Source: Spirochaetaceae bacterium (lineage in GTDB: Bacteria > Spirochaetota > Spirochaetia > CADAEX01). From it: 64,000 nt of DNA. Under the pieces are notes generated by a model. That model did not search any database and was not told the origin of the DNA. It was given only the letters and a program-made list of their open reading frames with translations. A program made the position numbers and the translations under genes. The first letter of the stretch is position 1. Every line of letters begins with the position of its first letter. The stretch lies in NCBI GenBank assembly GCA_009780675.1, contig WQZP01000008.1, positions 1 to 64,000 of the forward strand, written 5' to 3'. Below, piece after piece: positions 54,589 through 60,295 of the stretch.

Positions 54589-54645
54589 AATATTTAAAGT
54601 TTCAGCATTTGACTAAATTAATAAAAAATATTAGGAGTTTTGAAA

Positions 54646-55020
54646 ATGATTAAAAAAGCTTTGTTTATTTTGTTCTTCTTATCTACTTTTTTTCTTGCTT
54701 GCGGTCAAAGCCGTCAAATAGAAAATCCTGCAAGTGATTTTGAATATCTTGAAGAAGAAGGGAAAATAATAATAAGTAGGTATATAGGAGAATCAAAAGA
54801 TGTAGTTATACCCAGAAGAATAAATCAAATGCCGGTGGTTGCAATTGGAGACAGTGCATTTATGGAAAGTGAACTAACCAGCGTAACCATTCCCAATTCT
54901 GTTACTCATATTGATATACGGGCATTTGCGGAGAATCAACTAACCAGCGTAACTATCCCCAACTCTATTGCAACACATATTGGAAATAGGGCTTTTGATT
55001 CCAATGTGAGGATATGTTGA
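54646..55020 (+). CDS. Truncated BspA-like leucine-rich-repeat lipoprotein
   Basis: A 124-aa protein. The signal peptide with lipobox is MIKKALF...STFFLACG (Cys about 19). A short linker is followed by 1.5 to 2 Treponema-type LRRs: [20 protein letters not shown] and [21 protein letters not shown]. BspA-like proteins usually carry many repeats, so this one is a short remnant or a minimal form. The start is ATG 54646 with AGGAG upstream. The frame ends at a normal stop. Confidence 0.75.
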
Positions 55021-55499: not shown

Positions 55500-56147
55500 T
55501 TATTTCGTATATCCCCAAATTAAATCTTTAACCACGGACACAATTCTCCCAATAGGTTTGAAAGTTAAGTAATCACACGGAATTGATTTATTCTTTGCCA
55601 TAGTTAGAATAATAGAATTGCCTTTTCTCGTGATGTGACTAATATAAAGCTTGCCTCCCATCTGATACAAATAAATTCCTTCACCATTCCAGCCTGTAGC
55701 TTCAAATAGTACAATGTCACCTGTATGAAAAAGCGGAGCCATATGGTTGTTAAAGACCACGATAGCCCGCAGATCAGTGCTGTAAGATAAAATCCGCAAA
55801 GGGACAAAAATTGTTGAAGCTTTTGGATATTCTCCTGAATGAGCTTTTGGGTCTGGGATCTCTTTTTCTGGGTCGAACTTAAGAGCCTTATCCATTGTCA
55901 AAAGGGGAATTTCATACCCATTACTTCCCATCATTTCACCGTTACCGGTAAAAAGCCAATTAAGGTTTATGCCGTCCTGAATTAAAGAATATTCAAGTTC
56001 TGCGGGTATTTCAGAAAGCCCGGTTTCATAACGGGAAATAGATTTTTGATTAGAATGGTATTTTTCAGCAAATTCAACCTGATTCAATCGTAAAGTTTCA
56101 CGGTATAACCGCAAGCGGTCGCCCTTTTGAATTTGATTATAAGACAT
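55500..56147 (-). CDS. Phage-type repressor, XRE HTH plus S24 peptidase-like domain
   Basis: A 215-aa protein. The N-terminal HTH (residues 8-60: KGDRLRLYRETLRLNQVEFAEKYHSNQKSISRYETGL) is followed by a C-terminal LexA/CI-like domain with NNHMAPLFHTGDIVLFEA (S-x-M-like motif, with Asn-His-Met replacing Ser) and KSIPCDYLTFKPIGRIV. The usual catalytic Ser of the S/N-x-M motif is not obvious, so self-cleavage may be lost. ATG 56147 has GGAGG upstream. First of two genes with gp27-like. Confidence 0.8.
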   Translation of the reverse strand: MSYNQIQKGDRLRLYRETLRLNQVEFAEKYHSNQKSISRYETGLSEIPAELEYSLIQDGINLNWLFTGNGEMMGSNGYEIPLLTMDKALKFDPEKEIPDPKAHSGEYPKASTIFVPLRILSYSTDLRAIVVFNNHMAPLFHTGDIVLFEATGWNGEGIYLYQMGGKLYISHITRKGNSIILTMAKNKSIPCDYLTFKPIGRIVSVVKDLIWGYTK

Positions 56148-56275
56148 ATAATTCCTCCAAAGATTTAATTTAATAAGACATTTAGACATATTTTTAGTAA
56201 TCAAATACAATAATAATTGTTATTGTTTTTGATTCTCCCAAAGGAAGTTAAGACAAAATGTTATATATATTTCCC

Positions 56276-56299
56276 AAATACGCACACGTGTGCGCATTT
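56276..56299. repeat. Palindrome family member, left-most copy
   Basis: A 24-bp palindrome with AAAT/ATTT ends and core ACGCACAC|GTGTGCGC; one A/C mismatch reads as G-U on the minus-strand transcript. Flanking CCC/GGG extends the dyad to 30 bp (56273-56302). It lies just before the small minus-strand genes. Confidence 0.9.
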
Positions 56300-56338
56300 G
56301 GGAGCTTTTTAATTCCTCAAGGTCTATTCATCTATATA

Positions 56339-56542
56339 TTAATTTGCTTCTTTTTTTAAACCCTCCAATTTTTCAATACAATCATCAATAATTATTACAA
56401 GACCGTCAAAAGATTTATTTCTAAAATTGACGGGAATGTTATGTTCTTCTAGGGTCTGATAAAAATTAAAGAGATTGGTAATAACAAGAAGTTTGTTTTG
56501 GATTGCATCAATAACTTCATTGTTTGAAGGTGTGTACTTCAT
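56339..56542 (-). CDS. Small protein of unknown function, paralogue of the upstream gene
   Basis: A 67-aa helical protein. IQNKLLVITNLFNFYQTLEE...KSFDGLVIIIDDCIEKLEGL aligns with the C-terminal half of the 116-aa protein encoded at 56517-56867 (IINRLSTLDDLFTFYWYAHN...ESIEGIFSILGDCITELKEA). AAGGAGG precedes ATG 56542. It overlaps the paralogue by 26 bp, so the two are co-translated. Function unknown; it may form a heterodimer. Confidence 0.65.
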   Translation of the reverse strand: MKYTPSNNEVIDAIQNKLLVITNLFNFYQTLEEHNIPVNFRNKSFDGLVIIIDDCIEKLEGLKKEAN

Positions 56543-56867
56543 TAACAGCCTCCTTGAGTTCGGTTATACAGTCACCGAGTATTGAAAAAATGCCTTCAAT
56601 TGATTCTTTTTGAAAATCGGCTTTATTATGTGCATACCAGTAAAATGTAAAAAGATCGTCCAACGTAGAAAGCCTATTTATAATTTTCCAAATTTTATCT
56701 TGACTATCCATAGACTTATCCTGCTCTGTCGCTTGTGGTGTGTGAAGTTTCAAATACGAAATCGATTTTGTATTTGGCGACTCATAACACGGTGGAGATT
56801 TTTTTTCTGATGGAGCTTTTGAAAAGCTGGAGATTTTTGACTGTGAGGTCATTGCTTGTGATGTCAT
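56517..56867 (-). CDS. Small protein of unknown function carrying a palindrome in frame
   Basis: A 116-aa protein. The first 50 residues are low-complexity (MTSQAMTSQSKISSFSKAP...) and include a segment encoded by a palindrome copy (56752-56775; NTKSISYL). The last 60 residues are the helical domain shared with the next gene. An excellent ribosome site AAGGAGGTGTC stands before ATG 56867. The 198-bp structured unit lies immediately upstream, so its RNA would be the 5' leader. Not recognised. Confidence 0.62.
   Translation of the reverse strand: MTSQAMTSQSKISSFSKAPSEKKSPPCYESPNTKSISYLKLHTPQATEQDKSMDSQDKIWKIINRLSTLDDLFTFYWYAHNKADFQKESIEGIFSILGDCITELKEAVNEVHTFKQ
56752..56775. repeat. Palindrome family member inside a reading frame
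   Basis: AAAT/ATTT ends with core ACGAAATC|GATTTTGT; the single non-Watson-Crick position is G-T. Embedded in frame in the 116-aa minus-strand gene. Confidence 0.88.
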
Positions 56868-56878
56868 AAAGACACCTC

Positions 56879-57093
56879 CTTGTTGTTTGGTATTTCGGCA
56901 ATAAAAATAGCCGAACTGTTACCACGCCAACAAGGGCGCCCGGCCCTCACGGGTTCCCGGACAGTTCGACTATTATCAATAGATCGAGGTCTTTCAACAT
57001 CGTTTTATGTCAAAACCTCAATCTATTGATTAAAACAGGCACAAAAAAAGCCGCTATTGTGACGGTGCGGACGCCGCTTGTTGTTTGGTATTT
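56879..57093 (-). ncRNA. 198-bp unit bounded by 17-bp direct repeats with strong RNA folding on the minus strand
   Basis: CTTGTTGTTTGGTATTT occurs at 56879-56895 and 57077-57093. Between them, read on the minus strand, there are two long stems. One is 16 bp, arms at 57015-57030 and 56975-56990, with one G-U pair. The other is 14 bp, arms at 56961-56974 and 56906-56919, with one G-U pair; its loop holds CCC-GTGA-GGG (a GNRA tetraloop hairpin) and CGCC-CTTGTT-GGCG. A T7 run lies near 57043-57049. Both non-canonical pairs are G-U only for a minus-strand transcript, which supports an RNA read in that direction, directly 5' of the 116-aa gene. It matches no RNA class I know. Confidence 0.6.
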
Positions 57094-57129
57094 ATAGGAT
57101 AGTCCTAATGTAGATCTTTTGTCAATGCC

Positions 57130-57243
57130 AAATTCTGCACATGTGAGAATTTGGACTAACATTTAAGTATGAAATCGGCAATCGATTGCCGATTTTTGAT
57201 TAGGGAAAACAATTTGGGCAAATACGCAGACGACTGCCGTTTT
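57130..57243. repeat. Palindrome cluster, three copies
   Basis: Copies at 57130-57152 (TCTGCACA|TGTGAGA, one base short), 57172-57195 (CGGCAATC|GATTGCCG, perfect) and 57220-57243 (ACGCAGAC|GACTGCCG, imperfect), each with AAAT/ATTT-type ends. No convincing gene covers them, although a 75-aa frame 57169-57396 stays open through them. Confidence 0.9.
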
Positions 57244-57305
57244 GAACAAATTGGACAATATCCTCTTTGGAAAAAAAGGTTATACATCTTGCTTTTCTTA
57301 CTCCC

Positions 57306-57421
57306 AAATTCTGCACCAGTGCAGAATTTGCGCCCATTTTTTCAAATATCAACATTTTTAGTATCCAGACAAATGTTGCAACGCTACAATATTTAGCAAA
57401 TTCGCAGACGACTGCGAATTT
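57306..57421. repeat. Palindrome cluster, three copies including a pair with a 3-nt linker
   Basis: 57306-57329 (TCTGCACC|AGTGCAGA; the CA centre is the only mismatch), 57371-57394 (GTTGCAAC|GCTACAAT, decayed) and 57398-57421 (TCGCAGAC|GACTGCGA). The last two are separated by the trinucleotide AGC. Confidence 0.9.
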
Positions 57422-57549
57422 ATAGGACTATACACGAATAAATTGGACTTTTTTATTCGCTTTTAATTTTTCAAAATTGTTTTGTCCCAATTGCCAAAAA
57501 GACTAAATTTTATGCCGTGTATATTTTTTAACAACTTGAAAAACTTATA

Positions 57550-57615
57550 AAATTCGCAATCGATTGCGAATTTGAGAGTAAAGAATAATTCAAATTTTCA
57601 CTGCTGTGAAGATTT
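57550..57615. repeat. Palindrome cluster, two copies
   Basis: 57550-57573 (TCGCAATC|GATTGCGA, perfect) and 57592-57615 (TTTCACTG|CTGTGAAG, with one T-G pair and one central mismatch). Confidence 0.88.
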
Positions 57616-57649
57616 AAAGCAGATACAAAAAAATTATAAATTAAAAAAT

Positions 57650-57830
57650 AAATACGCAGGCGCCTGCGTATTTGGCCGATTTGAGTATCCAGCTAAATAT
57701 TGCAATTTGCAATATTTAGCAAATACGAAATCGATTTCGTATTTAGCAATGGGGAATTTGAACAAACACTTAAATGCGAAATCGGCACACGTGTGCCGAT
57801 TTTAACAAATGTGAAATCGAATTCACATTT
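57650..57830. repeat. Palindrome cluster, five copies including two linked pairs
   Basis: 57650-57673 (ACGCAGGC|GCCTGCGT, perfect), 57695-57717 (a 23-bp variant, perfect around one central base), 57721-57744 (ACGAAATC|GATTTCGT, perfect), 57779-57802 (CGGCACAC|GTGTGCCG, perfect) and 57807-57830 (GTGAAATC|GAATTCAC, one mismatch). Linkers between paired copies are AGC and TAAC. Confidence 0.92.
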
Positions 57831-57965
57831 AATCTTTTAAAAGTTGGAATGGAGCCCACTCTTTACAGAAGCGCAAAAAGTATCAAGGATTAGTAAAAAG
57901 TCTGTGAAGGAGTACTCCTTTTCAGACTGGGGGGATTTTTAAATGGAGCTTGAAACACCGAAGAA

Positions 57966-58313
57966 ATGGTTTTAGATTACCTTGTTTTTAGGGCAGAAAG
58001 AGCAGCCGAGGAATTACTTCAATTTGGCAGATATTGTCTTTGGCTAAAAGCAGAGGTTGGATATGGAAACTTTTATAAAGCCTTAGAACGAAGAAATATC
58101 ATCCCTCAATCTGCTGATTGGGCAATGCTGATATGTGAAAAGTTTGGAACAAATGTCACAACATTGCGACATTTGGCAAAACCCCAAGCACTCGGGGTTT
58201 TAGAACTAAAGGGCAAATCCGACAGCGCTGTCGGATTTGGGCAAACACTTAAAAAAGTTCACTTACAGAAAGGTAAAAACAGCGGGTTGGGTAAATTACT
58301 GCTTAGGCAATAA
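57966..58313 (+). CDS. DUF3102-like phage protein with palindrome-encoded C-terminal segment
   Basis: A 115-aa protein. Residues 8-60 (RAERAAEELLQFGRYCLWLKAEVGYGNFYKALERRNIIPQSADWAMLICEKFG) resemble DUF3102 phage proteins ('...G..L.EAK..L.HG.F..WLE......TA..F...'). The following 45 residues are encoded across three palindromes. A better start signal (GGGGGG, ATG 57943) lies 23 nt upstream in another frame and reaches a stop after ten codons (MELETPKKWF), so a -1 frameshift, a decayed start or a leader peptide is possible. Confidence 0.5.
   Translation: MVLDYLVFRAERAAEELLQFGRYCLWLKAEVGYGNFYKALERRNIIPQSADWAMLICEKFGTNVTTLRHLAKPQALGVLELKGKSDSAVGFGQTLKKVHLQKGKNSGLGKLLLRQ
58151..58238. repeat. Palindrome cluster inside the DUF3102-like gene, three copies
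   Basis: 58151-58174 (GTCACAAC|ATTGCGAC), 58178-58201 (AAAA/TTTT ends, CCCCAAGC|ACTCGGGG) and 58215-58238 (CCGACAGC|GCTGTCGG, perfect). The first two are separated by GGC. All three lie in the same open frame (24 nt is 8 codons). Confidence 0.88.
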
Positions 58314-58392
58314 GATTGTCTAGCAGTGCAGCATGAGGCTCTGGAGGAAAAATAAAATAGGGGTTAAAATTTATTGACAGATAAATTGAAGT

Positions 58393-58516
58393 CCCTTCCG
58401 CAGGCGTGCGGAAGGCCTTTGTGACAAAAATAAAAAGAGTCTGAACTATCAGAAAAAAATAGTTTAAATTTTGCAACGTTGTAAAGTTTAACAAATACGA
58501 AAACGTTTTCGCATTT
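58393..58516. repeat. Palindrome cluster, three copies including a linked pair
   Basis: 58393-58416 is a divergent GC-rich dyad (TTCCGCA GGCG TGCGGAA, without AAAT ends). 58466-58489 (TTTGCAAC|GTTGTAAA, two G-T pairs) and 58493-58516 (ACGAAAAC|GTTTTCGC, one A/C mismatch) are joined by the linker AAC. Confidence 0.85.
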
Positions 58517-58527
58517 GTTTTTTTCAT

Positions 58528-58778
58528 TACTTATTTTTAAATACGACAATAGAGTAAAACACAGCCTATTTTAAACCATTACTATATTATGATAATAAAC
58601 ACCATGTTGCGCATAAATGTGCTAGGCTTTAAAGCCTTGAGCCTCTGAGGGGAAAATAAAAAGATAAACAGATATGTTAATCGCTTTAAAATATGCAATT
58701 TAAAGAAAATATTAAATCATGAAAAATAAATAACTCCTGTTAAATGATTTAAACCACTGTTAGCATTAAACTGCTGTT
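58528..58778. other. AT-rich gap upstream of mor
   Basis: No gene seen. It contains a perfect 14-bp palindrome, AGGCTTTAAAGCCT (58624-58637). The promoter for mor is not clear. Confidence 0.5.
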
Positions 58779-59219
58779 ATGAAAAACAATAAATTAAGTA
58801 TTGTAGAAGACCTTATGTCAGCATGTGAAGAAGCTACAGGCAGCAAGGAAAAAGCCTTATGCGCTGTTCGTGCTTTGTGTAAAAAGTTTGGCGGTCAAAT
58901 TATTTATATTCCTTTTAAAGAGTCAAAAAAGATTACAGCAGAATATCTTAGAAAAGTACTTGTCCATAGTGCTGGAGAAAGCAACGGGGAAAAAATGCTT
59001 CTTAGAATTATGATTCTTATGGGAGGCGTTCAAATATATATCCCTATGGAGTATCGCGCGTTTCGTGATGAGATAGCAAAAGAAATTTACGAAAAATATG
59101 ATAGCAGCAGAAATAAGATGAGTGAATTATGTAACGAGCACCGCATAAGCTTTGCCCAATTATATCGCTTATGGCAAAGAGGTAAAGCATTAAAAATAAA
59201 TAAGGAGAATGAAAAATGA
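58779..59219 (+). CDS. Mor-family transcription activator (Mu-like prophage)
   Basis: A 146-aa protein. The N half is a dimerisation domain (CAVRALCKKFGGQIIYIPFKESKKI; a repeat-like GGVQIYIPMEYRAF) and the C-terminal HTH is FRDEIAKEIYEKYDSSRNKMSELCNEHRISFAQLYRLWQRG (residues 88-135). Mu Mor activates middle transcription. It directly precedes the head gene, with stop/start overlap (ATGA), which is not the Mu gene order and implies deletion of the intervening genes. Confidence 0.88.
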   Translation: MKNNKLSIVEDLMSACEEATGSKEKALCAVRALCKKFGGQIIYIPFKESKKITAEYLRKVLVHSAGESNGEKMLLRIMILMGGVQIYIPMEYRAFRDEIAKEIYEKYDSSRNKMSELCNEHRISFAQLYRLWQRGKALKINKENEK

Positions 59220-60130
59220 TTATTAAAGACGTGGTATTAGACGCACTTAGAACTATGGTAAAAGGTGAGTTCAGAACACAACTTGAATTTCTTATTGCTA
59301 ATGACATATATAAAACATTAGCAACAATAATTAGTTCAAATTCAAAAAGCAATACTTATGGTTGGCTTGGAAAATTTCCACAAATAAGGGAATGGGTTGG
59401 CGACAGAGTTTTAGAGTCAATAAAAGAAAGTTCTTATACTATTGAGAATAAAAAATATGAAGCAACACTTTCTATTGAACGCACAGATATTGAAGATGAC
59501 AACATTGGTATCTATAAGCCATTATCCCGCTCTATGGCAGATGAAGTTATTGCTTTTTTTAACCGCAATCTTGCGACTCTTTTAAAAGAAGGGTTTTCAA
59601 ATATATGCTATGACAAAGAACCTTTCTTTAGCGAAGAACATCCGGTTTATTCTAATGCAGATGGGACAGGGACAGCGGAAGAAGTGTCAAATATTTTAGG
59701 AGATAAAACAAAAAAAGGAAGTCCTTGGTTTCTTCTTTCTCTTTCAGGCTCGCTTAAACCATTTATTCTTCAACAAAGGAATAATCCAGAACTTGAAGAA
59801 ATAACTGATACTAAAAACGATACTGTTTTTTTAAAAGATAAATATCTTTATGGTGTTCGTTGGCGTGGTAGTTTTGGTTATGGATTTTGGCAGCAAGCTA
59901 TAGCGTCTAAAGAGCCACTCACTTCAGTTAATTTTGAAGCTGCACGGCTTCAAATGAGGCAATTTAAAAGAGATGGCGGAGATCCTCTTGGTATTGTACC
60001 TACCCATTTAGTAGTTAGTTCAGATAATGAAGTTGCTGCTTTACAAATACTTAAAGCCCAGCTTTTAGACAATGGTAAATCAAATATAAATTATAACACA
60101 GCGGAGCTTGTAGTATCTCCGTGGTTATAA
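59216..60130 (+). CDS. Mu-like major head subunit gpT
   Basis: A 304-aa capsid protein, the usual gpT length. The N-terminal NSKSNTYGWLGKFPQIREWVGDRV (about 43-66) and SFGYGFWQQAIASKEPL are characteristic of the Mu gpT family. AAGGAG precedes the ATG. It appears intact even though portal, protease and terminase genes are not in the window. Confidence 0.88.
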   Translation: MIIKDVVLDALRTMVKGEFRTQLEFLIANDIYKTLATIISSNSKSNTYGWLGKFPQIREWVGDRVLESIKESSYTIENKKYEATLSIERTDIEDDNIGIYKPLSRSMADEVIAFFNRNLATLLKEGFSNICYDKEPFFSEEHPVYSNADGTGTAEEVSNILGDKTKKGSPWFLLSLSGSLKPFILQQRNNPELEEITDTKNDTVFLKDKYLYGVRWRGSFGYGFWQQAIASKEPLTSVNFEAARLQMRQFKRDGGDPLGIVPTHLVVSSDNEVAALQILKAQLLDNGKSNINYNTAELVVSPWL

Positions 60131-60201
60131 TATAGATAAGTCTTTTTCCTTTGTGATATGAGGTAATATTTAGGATTTCATAATGGTTGAATTATTCCAT
60201 T

Positions 60202-60236
60202 ACACGCGGGCTTTTCTGCTTTCCCGCGTGTTTTTT
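60202..60236 (+). terminator. Rho-independent terminator after the gpT gene
   Basis: ACACGCGGG (60202-60210) / CCCGCGTGT (60223-60231), a perfect 9-bp stem with a 12-nt loop, then TTTTT. Confidence 0.88.
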
Positions 60237-60271
60237 ATTATTTGATAAAAAGTAATTTTAAAGTTTGGTTC

Positions 60272-60295
60272 AAATTTCCAAACGTTTGGAAATTT
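60272..60295. repeat. Palindrome family member, isolated right-most copy
   Basis: Perfect 24-bp palindrome with AAAT/ATTT ends and core TTCCAAAC|GTTTGGAA. It lies 1.75 kb away from the main array, between the gpT terminator and the gpP gene. Confidence 0.92.

Follow-up and report, generated by a model that had tools for sequence, protein, structure and literature searches.

Palindromes in a Mu-like prophage remnant of a Spirochaetaceae bacterium are probable operators of DUF3102 phage regulators

REP/BIME and Rickettsia palindromic elements are short palindromes, some of which lie in frame within coding genes. Phage Mu has an operator region, between its repressor and ner, whose operators are read by both the Mu repressor and the transposase; to our knowledge, DUF3102 is absent from Mu. 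Here we analyze an array of 24-bp palindromes (dyads) of the form AAAT-N7-CG-N7-ATTT in a Mu-like prophage remnant of a Spirochaetaceae bacterium, within a 64,000-nucleotide stretch of contig WQZP01000008.1 (the window). We conclude that these palindromes are very probably operators of DUF3102 proteins, which appear to be dimeric DNA-binding phage regulators whose cognate site lies mostly inside their own gene and moves with it as a cassette. Among described systems, in ParB and Noc the recognition-helix residues and one residue of a later helix (position 201) read different bases (PMC7383237), and the Cluster A mycobacteriophages carry many operator copies, the stoperators, across the phage genome, with regulator and operators diverging together and setting immunity specificity (PMC6550527).

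The DUF3102 sites resemble ParB-parS and Noc-NBS (PMC7383237) in that a DNA-binding domain, predicted from sequence to be dimeric, would sit on a palindrome, in the few specificity residues of the recognition helix plus a later one, and in the diversification of specificity within the family. They differ in that the DUF3102 site lies inside the segment coding for specificity and varies from phage to phage, and in that DUF3102 has neither a fold match to ParB or KorB in the Protein Data Bank (PDB) nor a detected CTPase domain. The stoperators (PMC6550527) share with DUF3102 sites the many copies and the joint divergence with the regulator, but are asymmetric with one motif per phage, whereas DUF3102 sites are palindromic, with the main one inside the gene of the regulator itself and with arrays of mixed specificity. 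A stoperator system was rejected because it would hold many copies of one motif, while arms differ widely in the window and in the loci L120, L243 and L302. Two cognate sites in L139 are placed as in the Mu operator region, and the arrays in L120, L243 and the window recall it by their closeness to the repressor. Like REP/BIME and Rickettsia elements, the sites are short palindromes and some are in frame in genes (L278), but they are not dispersed over the genome, not conserved in sequence and not linked to a transposase.

We scored each of the 21 dyads claimed in an earlier, sequence-only reading. Seventeen are 24-bp dyads with at least 10 of 12 complementary pairs, seven of them perfect (57172, 57550, 57650, 57721, 57779, 58215 and 60272); the others have 11/12 (56276, 56752, 57306, 57398, 57807 and 58493) or 10/12 (57592, 58151, 58178 and 58466). 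Of the remainder, 57695 is a perfect dyad, of 23 bp with an odd center, and 57371 (9/12), 57220 (8/12) and 57130 (7/11) are weak. An additional dyad at 58393 (10/12) is without AAAT/ATTT ends. The whole window contains 31 dyads of at least 10/12 (14 of at least 11/12), 20 (13) of them within 56.2-60.4 kb, against a chance level of 3 to 6 (0 to 1) in three dinucleotide shuffles of the window. AAATN7CGN7ATTT occurs at 16 places in the 2.4-Mb draft genome, 13 of them inside the array, and the remaining 3 are not palindromic. A covariance model built with 11 of the 12 pairs found nothing convincing outside the array in the genome search (best outside match, E 0.48), and blastn of the window against a phage collection returned no matches. 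In the host genome the dyads are confined to the Mu-like prophage remnant, and a REP-like dispersed repeat was rejected on this ground. Over 40 distinct sites from the window and relatives, 97.5% of pairs were complementary, compared with 68.9% after shuffling, and the covariation score was 0.683, compared with 0.153; sliding the partner by one base reduced it to 0.08. As the arm pairs covary across these sites and the signal is lost on a one-base slide, the complementarity is not mere inherited sameness, and a change in one arm is indeed matched in the other, as had been claimed.

With the head protein gpT of the remnant as anchor, we found nine related viral contigs. L018 and L021 each carry a single such palindrome, located within an open reading frame (ORF) of 285 amino acids just upstream of the transposase; both ORFs pass the PF11300 (DUF3102) cut-off of 24.4 bits, at 30.9 and 31.2 bits respectively, and match phrog_1748. 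The same intragenic arrangement was present in phages of Escherichia coli, Klebsiella, Microcystis and Pseudomonas (B3 and Ps59), in a Streptococcus satellite phage and in several spirochaete genomes. A palindrome of at least 10/12 occupied one fixed codon position in 89 of 94 loci gathered by protein similarity, and with identical ORFs removed and distant members added the site was present in 114 of 128 ORFs. Among the protein-found, non-identical ORFs, 64 carried the site (38 perfect, 17 with one mismatch). In total, 98 dyads of 11/12 or better were counted in the 0.8 Mb of these DUF3102 loci, mostly intragenic sites. Frequency and covariation claims exclude loci L171-L270 and L282-L311, which had been retrieved with fixed arm patterns. 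In the spirochaete genome L144, a short protein repeat, IGTKIGTKIGTK, directly precedes the intragenic site of the DUF3102 protein. Spirochaete matches of the TGTAAACGTTTACA type (L147, L154-L164, one genus) were set aside as another regulator's sites; they are probably unrelated sites of a LacI-type regulator.

Intragenic sites are almost invariant in their AAAW/WTTT ends and central CG, the latter being retained in 66 of 69 distinct sites, and the remaining arm bases vary between phages. These features bear on the idea that the dyad is an RNA hairpin or terminator in the DUF3102 mRNA, which we consider very unlikely. GC-rich arms with A-tract and T-tract ends do resemble a bidirectional terminator, and sense-strand G-T mismatches (17) outnumber A-C mismatches (10); yet the center, the would-be loop, is kept as CG, as the earlier no-loop argument against a plain RNA hairpin would have it, cognate copies occur outside a transcribed context and in either gene orientation, and an RNA structure leaves unexplained the relation between residues and bases that we describe next.

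The arm bases follow the recognition-helix residues of the same protein, and those residues are not encoded by the palindrome, which encodes about residues 117-124 (numbering of L047). Across a set of 48 non-redundant sequences, residue 100 fully determines base 6 (G with R, C with Q, and T with V, H or A), residue 97 base 7 (G with R, C with Q or S), residue 101 base 9 (C with R, A otherwise) and residues 161 and 127 base 11 (G with T, A with S or A), while base 8 depends largely on residues 98 and 95. Mutual information equals the full entropy for residue 100 with base 6, 97 with base 7, 101 with base 9 and 161 with base 11. The arginine-to-guanine pairs fit common protein-DNA contacts. To control for kinship, we built a tree from residues 1-80 and 173-302 only and placed changes on it by parsimony. 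Base 11 and residue 161 changed on the same branches in 12 of 12 cases (Jaccard 1.00), as did base 7 and residue 97 in 5 of 5 (Jaccard 1.00), and 20 of 24 changes were common to base 6 and residue 100 (Jaccard 0.71); for 157 variable background columns outside the module the index was at most 0.29. Base 11 is tied to the far-downstream residue 161 while the outer arm bases between them do not change along, so this tie is not block linkage. The covariation of protein and arm, a statistical relation, is our main evidence that DUF3102 proteins would bind the palindrome.

The same relation bears on the two origins of symmetry proposed in the sequence-only reading. Hairpin re-templating, in which template switching keeps the arms symmetric and no protein reads them, fits the symmetric arm changes seen between close relatives. 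It would not predict arms that follow residues encoded elsewhere in the gene, nor a fixed codon position in distant phages; it is not needed, and we regard it as extremely unlikely. The other proposal, a dimeric protein that reads symmetry, is supported as to selection by a dimeric protein but is amended as to what is read: the candidate reader is the DUF3102 family, each member of which would read the arm bases themselves.

AlphaFold2 gave a high-confidence, all-helical prediction for the DNA-binding domain (pLDDT 95.6), and this model matches DUF3102 proteins among viral structure predictions. Foldseek against the PDB yields no ParB or KorB, and membership of either was rejected; a Pfam scan of the L018 and L021 proteins gave DUF3102 only, with no ParB/Srx CTP-binding domain. 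We would not file the domain as ParB or KorB, though by analogy it may work alike. Raf1 was rejected as a structural relative (E 1.5, not significant).

Comparison of the phages B3 and Ps59 shows how the site travels. Their proteins have no differences in residues 41-80 and 166-302 but 26 in the 85 residues from 81 to 165, and the DNA shows the same sharp block at nt 241-480, synonymous changes included. Because the differences form such a block in protein and DNA, we conclude from the sequences that helix, site and second contact region pass between phages together, as one module. Cognate copies also occur outside the gene. An identical 24-mer lies inside the gene and 44-21 nt ahead of its start codon in L141, and L142 has this arrangement with one mismatch; L139 has two cognate copies between the repressor and a ner-like gene, Mae-JY22 has two, 45 bp apart, and L134 has one extra. 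These positions suggest that autoregulation and control of early promoters by DUF3102 are likely. Same-arm sites were also seen on an 86-kb viral contig (L255, L237, L253, L262), where seven to eight are spread along the contig and a DUF3102-like gene (L275) is without an intragenic site; they may perhaps serve a regulon or a partition-like function. On a 59.9-kb contig (L213, L224) there are at least 3 identical sites, AAATTCGCAAGCGCTTGCGAATTT, yet no DUF3102 gene was detected.

We propose that in most phages with a DUF3102 gene the cognate site sits inside that gene, 16 codons past the N-terminal part of the recognition helix, and that the helix, this site and a second contact region (about residues 127-162) would form one cassette of about 240 bp. 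If the cassette moves between phages whole, protein and site would stay matched; arms would differ because specificities differ, and symmetry would persist because both halves are read by a dimer with two-fold symmetry. Extra sites with the same arms near the gene start, or between repressor and ner, suggest that the protein controls its own early genes. Several observations weigh against this proposal. Of the 128 non-identical DUF3102 ORFs, 14 lack such a site, so the family can do without it. Searches of the PDB by profile and, with the domain model, by Foldseek (nothing with E < 1) gave no significant relative; since no solved structure resembles the model, the putative helix-turn-helix (HTH) assignment rests on predicted helices and covariation. 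The extra site of L143 matches the arms of its own gene in part, and that of L137 does not match. Lastly, it is not obvious how one protein would serve an array as mixed as that of the window.

The window holds a decayed Mu-like prophage with what we read as a broken DUF3102 gene and a heterotypic array of about 18-20 sites left beside the repressor. The remnant is without a transposase and comprises, in order, a gp27-like ORF, a CI-like repressor, the array, a Mor activator, the gpT head protein and the baseplate hub. Its features are as follows, palindromes being scored as dyads and given without strand.

55500-56210, minus strand: CI-like phage repressor (HTH and S24-like domain), left of the array; HTH_19/Peptidase_S24 (Pfam, below cut-offs), phrog_4 E 5e-22
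56276-56299: palindrome AAATACGCACAC/GTGTGCGCATTT, 11/12
56752-56775: palindrome AAATACGAAATC/GATTTTGTATTT, 11/12; its left half is identical to that of the phage L021 intragenic site
57172-57195: palindrome, 12/12
57306-57329: palindrome, 11/12, center CCAG
57371-57421: tandem pair, 57371 (9/12) and 57398 (11/12), gap 3 nt
57550-57573: palindrome, 12/12
57592-57615: palindrome, 10/12
57650-57673: palindrome AAATACGCAGGC/GCCTGCGTATTT, 12/12; equals the intragenic site of the DUF3102 gene of viral contig L183
57695-57744: tandem pair, 57695 (perfect 23-bp dyad) and 57721 (12/12), gap 3 nt
57779-57830: tandem pair, 57779 (12/12) and 57807 (11/12), gap 4 nt
57966-58313, plus strand: putative decayed DUF3102 gene, central part with HTH region; conserved start and end missing
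58151-58174: palindrome, 10/12, at the intragenic-site position of the decayed DUF3102 gene, peptide NVTTLRHL
58178-58201: palindrome, 10/12, 3 nt beyond the 58151 member, also in frame
58215-58238: palindrome AAATCCGACAGC/GCTGTCGGATTT, 12/12; identical site at L188:6210
58466-58516: tandem pair, 58466 (10/12) and 58493 (11/12), gap 3 nt
58779-59219, plus strand: Mor-type late activator; PF08765 E 1e-14
59216-60130, plus strand: Mu-like major head protein gpT; PF10124 E 5e-105
60272-60295: outlying palindrome, 12/12, in the interval between the gpT and baseplate-hub genes

The ORF at 57966-58313 aligns with L018 and L021 and matches phrog_1748 (E 4.8e-5, no curated cut-off), and falls below the curated PF11300 cut-off (13.1 bits versus 24.4); we read it as a probable decayed DUF3102 fragment. 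The dyad at 58151 is in frame at the position homologous to the intragenic site and belongs to that class. Neither the in-frame placement of 58151 and 58178 nor the tandem pairs at 3-4 nt had been mentioned in the sequence-only reading. The first members of the pairs with a 3-nt spacer (57371, 57695, 58151 and 58466) share a GTTGCAAC-like type, and the upstream word AGTATCCAG is common to 57371 and 57695, as if a longer segment had been copied. Homologues of gpT were absent from the other searched genomes of the same genus and family. To the left of the remnant, at 54640-55020, lies an apparently truncated fragment of a leucine-rich-repeat protein.

Besides the window, about six heterotypic arrays were found in unrelated phages, and arms differ within each. 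L120 has eight sites beside the repressor; L243 has four, 25-28 bp apart, downstream of the repressor; L302 has six, all of at least 11/12, one site being present twice; L234 has four. L278 (1638-1763) has four palindromes 30 bp apart, in frame within an unrelated phage coding gene, in a stretch absent from homologues. The seven sites of L254 have a different center (at 258-1250, CGCG or AACG-like in place of [AG]CG[CT]) and are perhaps read by a DUF3102 variant with other spacing.

What such arrays do, if anything, admits more than one tentative answer. A prophage might carry operators for many different DUF3102 specificities and with them titrate, or sense, the regulators brought in by superinfecting phages, a possibility that, if true, would drive rapid specificity change. 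Arrays of this mixed kind turn up repeatedly in unrelated phages; in both L120 and L243 no array site carries the arms of the phage's own DUF3102 gene and the arrays lie downstream of the repressor, in an operon expected to be expressed in lysogens. Three of the four L243 sites have half-sites identical to other phages' genes, and window site 57650 equals the L183 gene site. On the other hand, the 5 of 19 window sites that match a sequenced gene half-site are not significant given the 17% expected from base composition per position, and in the exact-match test of array arms against gene arms L243 alone was suggestive. Single-copy sites this short may not titrate protein, and arrays were also found within coding genes or ahead of structural genes.

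Also possible, and put forward just as tentatively, is that the sites are relics of former own specificities or of broken DUF3102 gene copies. The DUF3102 gene of the window is decayed, and tandem pairs of 27-bp period with shared flanks (AGTATCCAG at 57371 and 57695) resemble copies of a gene segment. However, seven sites are still perfect amid the decayed genes of the remnant, the DUF3102 gene next to the array is intact in L120 and L243, and none of the six L302 sites scores below 11/12. That a single DUF3102 protein of relaxed specificity occupies every site cooperatively, to form a platform for nucleation or silencing, seems unlikely: the close spacing (27-30 bp center to center in several places) and the AAAW ends and central CG common to all sites would suit it, but the one-to-one relation of residue to base points to strict reading, and in other phages the extra sites agree for the most part with the phage's own gene. 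A bolder version of the first idea, which we hold to be rather doubtful, is that the arrays are acquired panels of other phages' operators that catch or sense competitors' regulators, an exclusion that would need no RNA guides and would drive DUF3102 diversification.

Together these data indicate that the finding is real and is for the most part explained, on sequence evidence, by probable operators of a regulator family that carries its own address. The earlier claim that the dyads fit no described repeat class held up in our searches, though the explanation came from protein-coding relatives and not from a repeat family. Our searches of open-access papers found none on DUF3102 function or on such arrays, and this proposal would be the first function and mechanism for a family whose function none of the papers searched describes. 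Its members occur in Mu-like phages, in satellite phages and in mobile elements of other kinds. As the gene of each protein also spells out its site, natural variation already holds a residue-to-base recognition code, and every sequenced member would be a protein-DNA pair, a rare resource directly usable for studies of specificity. An operator embedded in the coding segment of its own reader would keep both matched under recombination. The heterotypic array is the most interesting part: it is surprising that a prophage remnant should hold sites of many different 'addresses', and mixed arrays of this kind pose a concrete question on prophage competition.

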